64,000 nucleotides of DNA, from the NCBI GenBank assembly GCA_037479115.1, contig JBBFLK010000002.1, forward strand, positions 1 through 64,000. The letters run 5' to 3'. The position numbers and the translations under genes are program-made. Positions 40,739 through 48,483 of this stretch are shown here, piece after piece; the first letter of the stretch is position 1; every line of letters begins with the position of its first letter. Below the pieces are notes generated by a model. That model was not told where the DNA came from. It saw only the letters and a list, made by a program, of their open reading frames with translations, and did not search any database. This DNA is from Anaerohalosphaeraceae bacterium. Lineage in GTDB: Bacteria; Planctomycetota; Phycisphaerae; Sedimentisphaerales; Anaerohalosphaeraceae.

Positions 40739-42199
40739 ATGATACCAGAGGATAATCTGGATGAGGATATTCTTCAGTGCAGGGCGGAAATTCTTCGAGC
40801 GCTCGGGAAAGAAGAGAAGGAGGAGGGAGAACCGGAGTCTATCGACCCAGATACACCTCTTGCTGCCTCTCAATCTTACCAAACTGAACCGAATGCTTCT
40901 GAAAATCAGAATCCTTCGATTGAAACCGAGCCCGATTTAATGGAAGAGTCCGAAACCATCAGCGAAGATGGGCTTCAAGACTCCTCGTCCGAATCCGATG
41001 TGTTGTCCGGCACCGCGGTACGGATGGATTCTCCGGAAACACCCCTGACAAATGCCAACCCGGAAGCTCCCCCCCTCCCGCAAGAGGTTGAAACGCTCAA
41101 AAGAGCCCTTCGTGTGCTCAGGGAGCAAAAAGAAAATCTCTCCCAGACGTGCCAGGAACAGGAAAACCATATCCGGCAGCTGACAGAAGAGATTGACCGT
41201 CTTCAGAAGACGCTTCAGCAAACGCAGGAAACCTGCTCCATTTTGACGGAAGAAAACAGCCGGTCTAAAACACTTCAGCAGGAAACGGAAACCCTCAGAA
41301 CCCGCCTTGAGCAGGCACAAGACCAGATCGAAAACCTGAACCTTCTCCTTTCGGCCCTGAAAGAAGAAAACGAACACCTCCGCGAAGAAAAAATACAGAT
41401 TTCCGAGCGTCTGACCGCAGAACAGCAAATCCGACAATCCCTGCAAAACCGTGAAGCGTCTTTGCAGGAGGAGATACACACGCTTCAGGACAAAACGGAA
41501 GCCCTTCAAAAAACTATCAATACCTTCCATCAGGAAATCGAGCGTCTCCGACAGCAGAATGCCTCTCTGGAACAGCAGATTCAGCGGCTGGAGCAAAATC
41601 TTCTCTGCCAGCAGGCTGATTCGATGAAGACCGAGACTGCACTTCGGGAAGAGCTGCAGAAAAAAACCAAAGAAGCGGAAAACTGGAAAACGGAATACGA
41701 GCGGGTTTGTGAACAGCTTGCAGCCGAGCAGGAAGACTTTGACGCAGCCGTTTCGGAGGCAGACATACAGCCCGATTCGTCTGTTTTCGAGGCGGAAACA
41801 CACAAAACAGGTTCGTCTTCGAGGCCGCAGGAGACTGTTTGGAAAGAAGACAACGAAGACTTTGCCATCCCCCGCTTTGACCTGTCTGAACAGATTCTTT
41901 CCGCCCAGCGAAAAGAGAGCAGCGCCCGCCGTCAGCCGCCGACAGGCACCAGAATTGACCCCAATGAATCCGTTCGCAGCGTGGTGCATCAGTTCCTCAG
42001 CACTTCGCCTGCCGAAAAGGCCGACAAATCGGCTCACAGGCCGCAGACCCCTCATTCCGTTTTTGAGCCCGCAGGTCCCGCCGTCAGAACAGACCGGCCG
42101 GCCAACGGCGATTCCCTGATTGCCGAAATCGTTCGTCGAGATATTGAACAGTTCTGCCGAAACCATCCCGGCGTTTATATTGAGTTTCCAAGCGGATAA
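40739..42199 (+). CDS. Acidic coiled-coil protein of unknown function
   Basis: The protein has 486 residues. The first ~120 are acidic and Ser/Pro-rich. Residues ~120-335 form an almost unbroken coiled coil of Gln/Glu/Leu heptads (RLEQAQDQIENLNLLL, IERLRQQNASLEQQIQRLEQN). A low-complexity linker leads to a C-terminal segment (~430-486) ending EIVRRDIEQFCRNHPGVYIEFPSG. No signal peptide or membrane segment is seen, so it is likely cytoplasmic scaffolding. GGGAG precedes the ATG. The next gene follows six bases later, and the pair is probably functionally linked. Confidence 0.7.
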   Translation: MIPEDNLDEDILQCRAEILRALGKEEKEEGEPESIDPDTPLAASQSYQTEPNASENQNPSIETEPDLMEESETISEDGLQDSSSESDVLSGTAVRMDSPETPLTNANPEAPPLPQEVETLKRALRVLREQKENLSQTCQEQENHIRQLTEEIDRLQKTLQQTQETCSILTEENSRSKTLQQETETLRTRLEQAQDQIENLNLLLSALKEENEHLREEKIQISERLTAEQQIRQSLQNREASLQEEIHTLQDKTEALQKTINTFHQEIERLRQQNASLEQQIQRLEQNLLCQQADSMKTETALREELQKKTKEAENWKTEYERVCEQLAAEQEDFDAAVSEADIQPDSSVFEAETHKTGSSSRPQETVWKEDNEDFAIPRFDLSEQILSAQRKESSARRQPPTGTRIDPNESVRSVVHQFLSTSPAEKADKSAHRPQTPHSVFEPAGPAVRTDRPANGDSLIAEIVRRDIEQFCRNHPGVYIEFPSG

Positions 42200-42205
42200 A
42201 CGCTT

Positions 42206-42997
42206 ATGTTCGAGGCAATCCAGGCCAGCGGATTCCAGGGATGGTTCAATACAATTTTCGGAACAGTCTGGACCTATCTGCTCCTCGTTCTTTTTTTTGC
42301 CTCTGTTTTGGTCGCTGTGCTCATTCGCTCCCTTCGTCCTTTTCGTTCCCGAAAAAACATTTCGCAAACCTCCCATCAGACGTTCGGGACATTTCTGCAC
42401 AGTGAAACGCAGCTTTTTGAAATCCTCAAGAAAGAGCCCTCAAAGCCGAAAACTGTTCTTTTGGCGGCAGCGGGCCTGGAGTGTCTGCCGGTTACCATTC
42501 CCATCCGGCTGGCCCTGCTTTCCAGTCAGGCCAAACGCCGCTGTCTGCTGATTGATTTGGACACCAAACGCAACGCCGTCTGGAAGGTATTTGCAAAAAC
42601 CTCCTCCAACGGCTCCGCCGCTCTGCCGGCGGAATCCGGCATAGACAATCTGTTCCTGATTCCGGCACATTATTTTGACCAAACCCGACAGATGAATCTG
42701 GCCCCCCTTCTTCGGCAGGTGAAGAAACAATACGAACTGATTCTGATTAACGCCCCGTATTTGGACGGTCATCCGGACCGCAACATGATTGTTTCGTCGG
42801 CGGAACAGGCCTTTCTTTTTGTAAAAGAAGACAGCCAGGCCCAGCGGCTCATTAACCTGTGTCAAAGCCGCAAATGCAAAATCCTTGGTTGTTATAAGCC
42901 GCTCGAAGCCCCGCTCTCCGGACGCTCCCCCAGCAGAGAAGCCGCCGCCGCATCCGCAACCCAAACCGTTTTGGAAAGAACCGACCAGAGGCAGTGA
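42206..42997 (+). CDS. Membrane-anchored ParA/BY-kinase-like protein lacking a P-loop
   Basis: The protein has 263 residues. One membrane segment at 22-42 is followed by a cytoplasmic domain resembling the CpsD/ParA-MinD ATPase fold. CLLIDLDTKRNAVWKVF corresponds to the Walker A-prime strand and YELILINAPYL to Walker B. The expected deviant Walker A (GxGKT) is replaced by AAAGLECLPVT near 87-97, without the key Lys. The C-terminal tail has no Tyr cluster, so it is unlikely to be a tyrosine kinase. A scaffold or membrane-recruitment role with the coiled-coil protein is inference. Its 3' end overlaps the convergent gene by 106 bases. Confidence 0.65.
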   Translation: MFEAIQASGFQGWFNTIFGTVWTYLLLVLFFASVLVAVLIRSLRPFRSRKNISQTSHQTFGTFLHSETQLFEILKKEPSKPKTVLLAAAGLECLPVTIPIRLALLSSQAKRRCLLIDLDTKRNAVWKVFAKTSSNGSAALPAESGIDNLFLIPAHYFDQTRQMNLAPLLRQVKKQYELILINAPYLDGHPDRNMIVSSAEQAFLFVKEDSQAQRLINLCQSRKCKILGCYKPLEAPLSGRSPSREAAAASATQTVLERTDQRQ

Positions 42998-44079
42998 GCC
43001 GGATAAACTGCCGGAGCCGGCGGATGAGTCAGCAAGGTACAGAGAATCGGCGCCTTTTCTCTTCCGCTGAGCACAACCAGAATTGACCCGGCATTCTGAA
43101 TAACCGGAACTGTCAGGGTCAGACGGTTTAATCCGTCAGGTCCGCGGACCGCCCGAACGAGGGATTGCCTGTCTGAAAGCACATCGGTTCCGGGAAAAAG
43201 AGAAGCAATATGGCCGTCGGCGCCGACTCCCAGCAGAACCAAATCCAGGACCGGAATTTGCCCGGGCTGCAAACCGAAAACCTCCCGCAATTTTTTTTCA
43301 TAGCCGGCTGCCGCTTCCTGCAAATCGGGTGCCTCCCCCTCCATCCGATAAACTCGTTCTCGTGGAATCCGCAGGGTTTTCAAAAAGGTTTCCGCAGCCA
43401 GCCGATAATTGCTGGCCGCATCGGAAGGACTTACGGCACGCTCGTCAGTCCAGAACCAATACACGTTTTTCCAGTCCATCTTTTGGGCGTCGGACGATTG
43501 GCTCAGATACTCAAAAAAACGGCGAGGGGTTCGCCCGCCGCAGACAGCGACGGCAAAACGGCCTTTCTCTCTGAGTGTCCGTTCTGCACAGAAAAGAAAC
43601 TCCGACAGCACCTCCCGGGCCAGCGTTTCTTCATCTGAAGTTCGGACAAACCGTCCGGAAAATTCCGCCAACGCCTGTTTTCGGGCCTCCAGAAATCCCT
43701 CCAGAATCGCCGCCGCCGCCACGGCATCCAACCGTTTCTTGCGTTTTTTTCGCGTAAGCTCCATAGCGGCCAGTTTCTCCTGCGCCTCAAAACTGCTCAG
43801 CCGCTCGTCAAAGAAAAGAATCGGCAGCGGAAGAGTTTTTTTCAGTTCCTCCGCAAATCGGCGCACCTTCGCCGCGCGCGGTCCTTCCGTTCCGTCCATA
43901 TTGCAAGGCAGCCCGATGACAATCGCATCAAGTCGATAGGATTCAAGAGCCCTGCGAATCCCGGCCGGGGAGTTTTCAGCTCCTTCCAGTACCGTCAGAG
44001 GAGAAACAACCCGTTCAGAGGCGTCACAAACGGCCAGCCCCGTCCTTTTGTCTCCGTGATCAATCGCCAAAAACCGCAT
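42892..44079 (-). CDS. Fusion of RuvX-type nuclease and 6-phosphogluconolactonase
   Basis: A single 395-residue frame holds two full domains. Residues 1-~135 match RuvX/YqgF: Asp7 in LAIDHGDKRTG, GLPCNMDGTEGPRA at 56-69, FFDERLSS at 89-96 and Asp118 in LDAVAAAAIL, all expected catalytic positions. Residues ~143-383 match 6-phosphogluconolactonase (DevB/Pgl): CGGRTP at 180-185, TDER at 211-214 and LLGVGADGHIASLFPG at 282-297. RuvX acts on rRNA/Holliday-like substrates; Pgl opens 6-phosphogluconolactone in the pentose phosphate pathway. No stop or restart lies at the junction, so this is a real fusion unless the sequence has an error. It follows manC by 17 bases. Confidence 0.88.
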   Translation of the reverse strand: MRFLAIDHGDKRTGLAVCDASERVVSPLTVLEGAENSPAGIRRALESYRLDAIVIGLPCNMDGTEGPRAAKVRRFAEELKKTLPLPILFFDERLSSFEAQEKLAAMELTRKKRKKRLDAVAAAAILEGFLEARKQALAEFSGRFVRTSDEETLAREVLSEFLFCAERTLREKGRFAVAVCGGRTPRRFFEYLSQSSDAQKMDWKNVYWFWTDERAVSPSDAASNYRLAAETFLKTLRIPRERVYRMEGEAPDLQEAAAGYEKKLREVFGLQPGQIPVLDLVLLGVGADGHIASLFPGTDVLSDRQSLVRAVRGPDGLNRLTLTVPVIQNAGSILVVLSGREKAPILCTLLTHPPAPAVYPAHCLWSVLSKTVWVADAAAASLLGERPESGASSGL

Positions 44080-44096: not shown

Positions 44097-45173
44097 TTAC
44101 AGATAGTTTGTTTTGCCTTCGCTTTCAAGCCGGCGGAGGAGTTCTTTGAGTCGATGGGCCTGATGAAGCGGACAAATCAGGGTCGCATCCGGGCTGTGGG
44201 CTACGATGACATCTTCCATCCCAATCATCGCAATCAAATGGTCTGGCGATTCCGTAGCCACAATCGTATTTCGGCAATCCAGCAAACAATGCTGACCGGC
44301 AATCACTGTATTCTGATTGGAATCCGAGGAGATAATGTCGGCCAGGGCTGCAAAAGACCCCATATCCAGCCAGCGGCACGACAGCGGAATCCCGTAAATC
44401 TGAGGGGCCTTTTCCAAAACGGCATAATCAATGCTGATTTTCGGAAGGCGGGGAAACCATTCCTCCAAAGCCGAGTCCTGCTCCGGCCCTCCCCAGGCAG
44501 AACGAATTTTTTCCAGCGGCTCGCTCGACTCGGGCAGAAACGTCTTCAGATGCTTCAAAATCGTTTTGGCCTTCCAGACAAACATCCCCGAATTCCAGAA
44601 ATACCCCCCTTGAGCCAAAAATCGTTCCGCGGTTTCCTGATCGGGTTTTTCCCGAAATTCGGCAACTGGAAAAATCCGGCTTTGCCCTTCCTGAATCTGA
44701 AGACGAATATAGCCGTACTGTGTTGCTGGAAAAGTGGGTTTGATTCCAAACGTCAGCAGGGCCTCGGGGTGTTCTTTCACGAAACGAATGGCAGTCTGCA
44801 GAGCGTCTAAAAAAGGTTCCGCCGGCTGGAGAATATGGTCCGAAGTCACCACCGCCATGACCGCTTCCGGGTCCGCTTTTTGAAGGACCGCCGCCGCCAG
44901 ACCGATGGCTCCCGCCGTATCACGAACGCACGGCTCCGGTATGATATTGTCTTTCGGCAGTTCACTTAAGTTTTCAGAAACCTGCTCGGCATACTCCGCA
45001 TTCGTTAAAACCAGGATATTACGGAGGTCAAAAAGCCGATTCAGCCGTTCGAAGCTGTCCCGCAAAAGCGTTCGACCATTCAGGAGTTTGAGTATCTGCT
45101 TCGGTCGAGACTGACGGCTCAACGGCCACAGCCGCTGCCCGGAACCGCCCGCCATAATGACGGCAAAATCCAT
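44097..45173 (-). CDS. manC: Mannose-1-phosphate guanylyltransferase
   Basis: The enzyme makes GDP-mannose from Man-1-P and GTP for polysaccharide synthesis. It has 358 residues. The nucleotidyltransferase fold has VIMAGGSGQRLWPLSRQSRPKQ, TSDHIL near residue 110, EFREKPD and GYFWNSGMFVWKA. The first ATG with AAGGAG is at 45173; the TTG seven codons upstream is not needed. It lacks the C-terminal isomerase domain of bifunctional ManC/AlgA. It sits in one unit with a PfkB kinase and the RuvX-Pgl fusion, all sugar-phosphate functions. Confidence 0.95.
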   Translation of the reverse strand: MDFAVIMAGGSGQRLWPLSRQSRPKQILKLLNGRTLLRDSFERLNRLFDLRNILVLTNAEYAEQVSENLSELPKDNIIPEPCVRDTAGAIGLAAAVLQKADPEAVMAVVTSDHILQPAEPFLDALQTAIRFVKEHPEALLTFGIKPTFPATQYGYIRLQIQEGQSRIFPVAEFREKPDQETAERFLAQGGYFWNSGMFVWKAKTILKHLKTFLPESSEPLEKIRSAWGGPEQDSALEEWFPRLPKISIDYAVLEKAPQIYGIPLSCRWLDMGSFAALADIISSDSNQNTVIAGQHCLLDCRNTIVATESPDHLIAMIGMEDVIVAHSPDATLICPLHQAHRLKELLRRLESEGKTNYL

Positions 45174-45222
45174 TCGACCTGTCTCCTTTTCCAACCAGCC
45201 GACTGAGCGGCTGCCTGGTGTT

Positions 45223-46302
45223 TTAGCGTTTTACGCGGGCGTTGCCTTCCCAGATGCTCCAAATCTGCTCTTCATCGGCCGGCTGTGCATAATCCGTCAG
45301 AAGGGTTGTCGCCAGGGCTCCGGCCGCCCAGCCGAATTGAACCCACTTGGCCGGTTCCCAGCCCTTTAAAATCGCATACAGCAGACCGCCGACAAACCCA
45401 TCTCCCCCGCCGATGCGGTCCAGCACGGTGATTTCGCGGGGCTCAATCACATACCAGTCATTCCCCTCCGCCATAATCGCTCCCCACAAATGACGCTCGG
45501 TGCTGAGCACCTGCCGCAGCGTTGTGGCGAAAACGGATGCGTTCGGGAAGGTCTTCTTGACATTGGAAATCATCCCCTTGAAACTGTCAATCTTGGCGGC
45601 AATATCTTTGCCCCCTGCTTCCGGCCCTTCGATGCCGAGTGCCAGCTGGAAATCCTCTTCATTGCCGACCAGGATATCCGAAACCGATGCAATTTCCGTA
45701 AAGATGGCTCGCAATTCCTTTTCCCGATTCTTCCAGAATGAGGCCCGATAGTTCAGGTCAAAAGAAATCTTGGTCCCATACCGTTTGGCGGCGCGAGCAA
45801 GTTCCAGACAAAACTGCCCCGTCTCCGGCGAAAGCGCCCCAATCAGACCGGACATATGGATAATCTGCACCCCTTCTTTGCCGAACAGACGCTCCAAATC
45901 AAAATCCTTCACATTCAGCGTCCGCCCTACCTCGCCGGCCCGGTCATTGTGCACGCGAGGTCCGCGGCTGCCGTATCCGCTGTCGGCCAGATTGAACTGA
46001 TGCCGGTACCCCCACGGCCCGCCCTGCGGGACTTCCTTGCCTTCATATTCCATATGACGAGAGGCCAGGTCATCTTTGATAAATTGGGCAATCGGGCTGT
46101 CTTTGACAAAGGTTGTCAAAACTTTGACGCGGAGTCCCAGGTAGGAGGAAACACTGGCAACATTCGTCTCGGCGCTGGTGGCCTGCATCATCAGCAGACG
46201 CGCACAATGCATCGGCTGACCGTTCAGCGGCGTCAAACGAACCCCCATACTGGTTGGAACAACGAGATGATACTGACAACCTTTTTTCAATTCGAGGCCC
46301 AT
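45223..46302 (-). CDS. PfkB-family sugar kinase, KDG-kinase-like
   Basis: The protein has 359 residues with a ribokinase fold. The N-terminal substrate motif is present, and MSGLIGALSPETGQ and FDLNYRASFW resemble 2-keto-3-deoxygluconate kinases. The anion-hole/catalytic motif GGGDGFVGGLLYAI near 315-328 carries the base Asp. It would phosphorylate 2-dehydro-3-deoxygluconate or a similar sugar acid, but the substrate is not decided. AAGGAAAGGG precedes the ATG. A predicted promoter lies at 46361-46389, so it starts the manC and RuvX-Pgl unit. Confidence 0.85.
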   Translation of the reverse strand: MGLELKKGCQYHLVVPTSMGVRLTPLNGQPMHCARLLMMQATSAETNVASVSSYLGLRVKVLTTFVKDSPIAQFIKDDLASRHMEYEGKEVPQGGPWGYRHQFNLADSGYGSRGPRVHNDRAGEVGRTLNVKDFDLERLFGKEGVQIIHMSGLIGALSPETGQFCLELARAAKRYGTKISFDLNYRASFWKNREKELRAIFTEIASVSDILVGNEEDFQLALGIEGPEAGGKDIAAKIDSFKGMISNVKKTFPNASVFATTLRQVLSTERHLWGAIMAEGNDWYVIEPREITVLDRIGGGDGFVGGLLYAILKGWEPAKWVQFGWAAGALATTLLTDYAQPADEEQIWSIWEGNARVKR

Positions 46303-47592: not shown

Positions 47593-48483
47593 TTAACTCT
47601 CCTGATGGCTGTGAGGCCGCTGAGCGGCATCTGCCTCTTCTTCGACAATCAAATCCGGACTGACATATTCGTGAAGTTTGGCCTCGACGATTTCCTTCAT
47701 CGTATAGTCGGCCAGTTTGCAGCTGGCACACATTCCGCGAAACGCCACAATCACACGGTTGCCGACCACATCAATCAATTCAATATCGCCGCCGTGAGCC
47801 CGCATGGCAGGCCGGACCTGTTCCCCGAGCACTTCCTGAATCAGCGCAATTTTCTGGATATTGGTCAGTTTCCGGGGCGGCGGCTCCGGAGCGGCGCGCA
47901 GCTGGCGTACCTTGTCCCCCTGAACTTCCTCAATCAGTTTCTCAATCTGTCCCCTGCATCCGCCGCATCCGCCTCCGGCTTTGCAGTAGTTCGTCACCTG
48001 TTCCACTGTGGTCAGATTGTTGTCTCGGACGACCCGGCGGATTTCCTCATCCGTAACACCGAAGCAGGTACAGACAATCTTCCCGCTCTTGACGGCGGGC
48101 GGAGCCCCTTTTCCTTTTGAGCGGTAGTAGGCAATGGCAGCCATCAGCGCCTCGTGGCCCATCACCGAGCAGTGCATCTTCTGTTCCGGAAGGCCGCCCA
48201 GCCGCTCGACAATATCCTTGTTGGTGATTTTTTCCGCTTCTTCAAGCGTCAGCCCCTTGACCATTTCCGTCAAAACAGACGAAGAGGCAATCGCACTGGC
48301 ACAACCGAATGTCTGAAACTTGGCATCGGCAATCCGTCCGTCCGGGCCGAGCTTGAATGTAAACGTCAAGGCATCGCCGCAGGCCAGCGAACCGACCTCG
48401 CCGATGCCGTCCGGATTCTCAATCCGGCCGACATTTTTCGGATTCAGAAAATGTTCCATCACTTTATCGGTATAATCCCACAT
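47593..48483 (-). CDS. nifU: Fe-S cluster scaffold NifU
   Basis: NifU has 296 residues with the full three-domain architecture. The IscU-like N-terminal part carries Cys35, Cys61 and Cys105. The central Bfd-type [2Fe-2S] part has Cys138, Cys140, Cys173 and Cys176 (VCTCFGV, GGCGGC). The C-terminal Nfu part has Cys252 and Cys255 (GMCASCK). It assembles clusters with sulfur from NifS and delivers them to apo-proteins, possibly to NadA, encoded just upstream. GGAG sits eight bases ahead of the ATG. Confidence 0.96.
   Translation of the reverse strand: MWDYTDKVMEHFLNPKNVGRIENPDGIGEVGSLACGDALTFTFKLGPDGRIADAKFQTFGCASAIASSSVLTEMVKGLTLEEAEKITNKDIVERLGGLPEQKMHCSVMGHEALMAAIAYYRSKGKGAPPAVKSGKIVCTCFGVTDEEIRRVVRDNNLTTVEQVTNYCKAGGGCGGCRGQIEKLIEEVQGDKVRQLRAAPEPPPRKLTNIQKIALIQEVLGEQVRPAMRAHGGDIELIDVVGNRVIVAFRGMCASCKLADYTMKEIVEAKLHEYVSPDLIVEEEADAAQRPHSHQES

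Follow-up and report, generated by a model that had tools for sequence, protein, structure and literature searches.

A RuvX/YqgF domain joined in frame to a 6-phosphogluconolactonase domain in one planctomycete family

The active site of YqgF consists of three carboxylates, an Asp on strand 1, a Glu at the end of strand 5 and an Asp on helix 3 (PMC9601230), and the solved RuvX structures that were found are single-domain chains of 138–170 aa. 6-Phosphogluconolactonase (6PGL) has been fused independently several times to G6PD, in Plasmodium, in Giardia/Trichomonas and in the animal H6PD (PMC3148214). The gene described here likewise joins 6PGL to another protein; however, in those eukaryotic fusions 6PGL is joined to the enzyme that precedes it in the pathway, whereas here the partner is a nuclease, the host is a bacterium and 6PGL is C-terminal. 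With RuvX as the partner and zwf as a separate gene, the protein falls outside the G6PD::6PGL group. No report of a fusion or other link between RuvX and 6-phosphogluconolactonase was found in the literature searched, in agreement with the original prediction that the two activities have no known partnership.

The window, that is, the whole stretch of 64,000 nt that was analyzed, belongs to a 3.0 Mb genome that is 99.85% complete. The fusion gene, its parts and its nearest neighbors are as follows.

42892..44079, minus strand: ruvX::pgl fusion gene, 395 aa, a single open frame with full-length homologues in 12 other intact genomes
43687..44079, minus strand: RuvX/YqgF domain, residues 1–131 (PF03652, E 3.5e-39; TIGR00250 over its cut-off)
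43621..43689, minus strand: linker/junction of length 23, residues 131–153, made up of the RuvX C-terminal tail and the Pgl N-terminal leader
42961..43635, minus strand: 6-phosphogluconolactonase domain, residues 149–373 (PF01182, TIGR01198), GVGADGHIASLFPG with H290
44097..45194, minus strand: manC-like mannose-1-phosphate guanylyltransferase (PF00483, PF22640), 17 nt upstream of the fusion
45223..46302, minus strand: PfkB-family sugar kinase (PF00294), 28 nt upstream of manC
42206..42997, plus strand: membrane/BY-kinase-like gene (weak PF13614/TIGR01007), convergent, its 3′ end overlapping the fusion 3′ end by 106 nt

The frame has no stop codon at the junction. PF03652 (RuvX) aligned over profile positions 1–133 of 134 with 134.7 bits against a cut-off of 29.2, and PF01182 (6PGL/glucosamine isomerase) over positions 2–225 of 225 with an E value of 1.8e-61. 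Among the NCBIfam models, TIGR00250 (RuvX) scored 104.3 bits vs. a cut-off of 43.25 and TIGR01198 (pgl) 177.3 bits vs. an equivalog-domain cut-off of 124.45, while the nagB equivalog reached 57.3 on the Pgl half, far under its cut-off of 236.9. The RuvX carboxylates D7, E92, and D118 were identical in 13 of 13 intact fused proteins, as were the Pgl DER residues D212, E213, and R214 and those of the GxGxDGH motif at 284–290 (G284, G286, D288, G289, and H290). The prediction of one unbroken frame that carries a complete RuvX and a complete Pgl, each with the expected active residues, was therefore borne out by full-profile matches and by the invariance of these residues.

The three carboxylates of the RuvX half match the YqgF description (PMC9601230), and their strand and helix placement agrees with it in an AlphaFold model, although this model is poor (pLDDT 60, 6 sequences) and was left out of the fold searches. 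The fused protein resembles RuvX/YqgF in the full domain, the DxG motif, the three carboxylates and the single copy per genome, but its C-terminus runs on into a second enzyme. With the DevB/Pgl-type 6-phosphogluconolactonases it shares the full domain, the GxGxDGHxASLFPG signature and the presence of zwf and gnd in the genome; it differs from them in that RuvX precedes the N-terminus and that the Pgl half lacks a start codon of its own with a recognizable ribosome site.

Genome-wide, the only RuvX–Pgl match was the fusion gene itself, which was also the sole PF01182 match; with this single match, no other source of either function is visible in the genome. zwf lies on the same contig as the fusion (C2:110918–111814) and gnd on another (C16:30718–31587); together with the Pgl half they provide all three oxidative pentose phosphate steps, and the Pgl half would be the only 6-phosphogluconolactonase of the cell, acting between G6PDH and 6PGDH. 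A separate RuvC is encoded on contig C5, which makes the RuvX half likelier to be an rRNA-processing enzyme of the YqgF type than the main Holliday junction resolvase. Based on the presence of RuvC, on family knowledge and on the published account of YqgF (PMC9601230), pre-16S rRNA processing is its most likely role. Judged from sequence, the gene quite probably encodes a bifunctional housekeeping protein that arose by in-frame fusion of neighboring genes, the main consequence of which would be coupled expression and stoichiometry. Both activities would work within one polypeptide, and no substrate would be transferred between the halves.

A search for the fused architecture, which had been proposed together with the original prediction, found the fusion in 13 other genomes of the family, of which 12 are intact and one is cut by a contig end. 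Intact full-length fusions occur within the window's genus (G000, G001, G003, and G004), in four of the four g12 genomes and three of the three g16 genomes read, and in two g13 genomes. In G005, also of the window's genus, the RuvX start lies at the end of one contig and the RuvX C-terminus, running on into Pgl, at that of another; this was rejected as a split gene pair, being a fusion interrupted by assembly. Open frames of ~450 aa in the split genomes G010, G017, G018, and G031 were likewise considered as further fusions and rejected, since the DNA has a stop between the two genes.

The fused proteins share identities of 43–92%. Among close fused pairs, dN/dS was 0.04–0.11 for the RuvX half and 0.11–0.22 for the Pgl half, and both halves are under purifying selection. 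The linker is weakly constrained (over 12–14 codons, its dN/dS reaches 0.65 or is undefined), and its variable sequence holds no conserved interface motif. The original prediction had named two findings that would speak against a real fusion, a sequencing error or missed stop at the junction and an absence of the fusion from all close relatives, and neither was observed. The fusion is conserved in close relatives, and the same in-frame junction recurs in many separately assembled genomes that have diverged synonymously. Because the junction is open in 13 intact genomes and synonymous changes far exceed nonsynonymous ones in both flanking domains, an assembly or sequencing artefact that removed a stop codon is excluded, its probability being practically negligible, and the conservation of the junction already refutes it.

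A tree of manC, RuvX and Pgl and a tree of manC alone each required three state changes, and both rejected a single fused clade (AU p 1.1e-9 and 7.1e-6, respectively). A seven-marker tree of the clade required four changes, and in it the split G002 branches as the sister group of every fused member of the window's genus. The change counts are, however, similar for independent fusions and for one fusion followed by several re-splits, and by themselves they cannot separate gain from loss, so that a single early fusion, at the root of the g1/g12/g13/g16 clade, with several later re-splits and no repeated gain, would account for them too. Against such a history, the split ingroup (G002 and most of g13) has an outgroup-like arrangement, a Met-started Pgl leader of 20 residues and mostly a gap of 130–163 nt, which re-splitting would have to recreate, and the linker lengths differ among the fused lineages (21, 23, 24, and 21/26). 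A single old origin is thus considered unlikely. Separate fusions are preferred because the split ingroup shares the Pgl leader and a similar gap with the outgroups; the sequences point to three or four independent fusions, or to fewer with re-splits, the former being the better reading.

The split relatives also indicate how the join was made. In split genes, RuvX ends 3–9 residues past a conserved FL, except in one genome where it runs 19 residues beyond, and the Pgl leader has 17–22 residues, apart from two longer ones that depend on which start is taken. Linkers in the fusions, 21–26 aa long (23 in the window's gene), equal the RuvX tail plus the Pgl leader of these relatives, indicating that the stop, the gap and the start were lost cleanly and that no domain was truncated. 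Under separate fusions, the ancestral state would be the separate neighbors manC–ruvX–pgl, and in-frame gap deletions would have joined ruvX and pgl at least three times. A promoter-like motif, CGTAATA/CGTATAA, which was picked after viewing the gaps, was present in 8 of 19 ruvX–pgl gaps vs. 1.7 expected from simple base shuffles, and near the junction in none of the fused loci. This suggests that pgl may have had its own promoter in the gap and lost it upon fusing.

Separate products might still persist from a fused gene, by internal initiation of the Pgl half or by proteolysis of the linker. In G029 and G027, an ATG/GTG lies inside the frame close to the junction, preceded by a purine-rich stretch, and the weak constraint on the linker is consistent with such products. 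In the window's gene, however, the only start-like codon of the linker (GTC/CTG-type neighbors aside) is a TTG at residue 137, which has no well-placed Shine–Dalgarno sequence, and other lineages have no conserved internal start. This reading is therefore very unlikely, and production of the two halves as one bifunctional protein is preferred.

Loci from about 40 genomes were read for gene order. Most of the family has manC–ruvX–pgl on one strand, with a ruvX–pgl gap that is usually 130–390 nt; in G014, pgl is on a different contig. In G060 (L098 8177–9570), ruvX and pgl stand ~1.4 kb apart, apparently because of an insertion into the ancestral gap; by eye, this interval may hold an antisense gene. 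ruvX and pgl overlap by 8 nt in two f4 genomes, and in four f11 genomes (L121–L124: G263, G283, G338, and G334) manC–ruvX faces a convergent pgl, indicating that the ruvX/pgl neighborhood is older than the fusion family and existed in a different orientation. In each of the 37 loci for which both genes were read, manC and ruvX were adjacent. ruvX comes immediately after manC throughout the family and has manC as its fixed neighbor also in families f4 and f11, whereas pgl varies in position and orientation. manC–ruvX is an older and steadier pair than ruvX–pgl, and the view that the nuclease half is out of place in this neighborhood has to be given up. ruvX and pgl were long-standing neighbors before they fused, so that the pairing has an ordinary origin. 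Its parts are ordinary, and the fusion most likely stems from gene adjacency and shared expression, and not from a new mechanism.

No manC–ruvX fusion was found in the 37 loci, although the gap between these genes has a median of about 17 nt and is mostly under 35 nt. This bears on a functional explanation, in which ribosome maturation would be tied to pentose phosphate flux (ribose-5-phosphate, NADPH), for example by allostery or localisation, and the fusion would for that reason have been fixed repeatedly. In its favor, the same pair apparently fused three or four separate times in one family, while manC–ruvX, closer together and in every locus read, never did. However, manC–ruvX is one control pair only, and its fusion may be structurally barred; moreover, the variability of the linker and the silence of the literature searched on any partnership tell against coupling, and this explanation is quite unlikely. 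That RuvX and Pgl are physically and functionally coupled, with the pentose phosphate pathway signaling to or supplying rRNA maturation, is likewise decidedly improbable; if it were true, the repeated fusion would make visible an interaction that the separate proteins of relatives have as well. Adjacency with shared expression remains the preferred account. Either unrelated enzymes fuse through adjacency alone, or rRNA processing has an unsuspected link to NADPH/ribose supply; an undescribed domain pairing that one family appears to have fixed on three or four occasions is in this sense a natural experiment on the fusion of neighboring genes, and its split and fused relatives are ready-made pairs for comparison.

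The sample comprised 294 genomes of the phylum (at least 90% complete), along with 118 from the order and 39 from the family. Among the matches listed, where a full-length match would rank top, the fusion occurred solely in family f1, and none of the plasmid records covers both halves. Long pgl open frames in seven genomes of other planctomycete families (G290, G155, G117, G286, G266, G215, and G100) were rejected as fusions; by eye, their upstream part is Arg/Ala-rich, resembles an out-of-frame translation of GC-rich DNA and does not look like a domain.

Several observations were made on the surrounding genes. The best NCBIfam matches of the PfkB-family kinase are KDG-kinase/KDPG aldolase-kinase models, all under cut-off. 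The BY-kinase/ParA-like protein has one TM segment, and a coiled-coil protein is encoded beside it at 40739–42199 on the plus strand; both genes are convergent to the fusion. This pair adjoins ruvX/pgl in the clade of g1, g12, g13, and g16; the loci read from the other genera showed no sign of it. Further along the window, 47593–48483 on the minus strand encodes a NifU with N-terminal, BFD-like [2Fe-2S] and C-terminal domains, and its neighbors, a class V aminotransferase (nifS-like), nadA, a hexapeptide transferase and a PALP enzyme, form with it an iron–sulfur/NAD/cysteine gene cluster.
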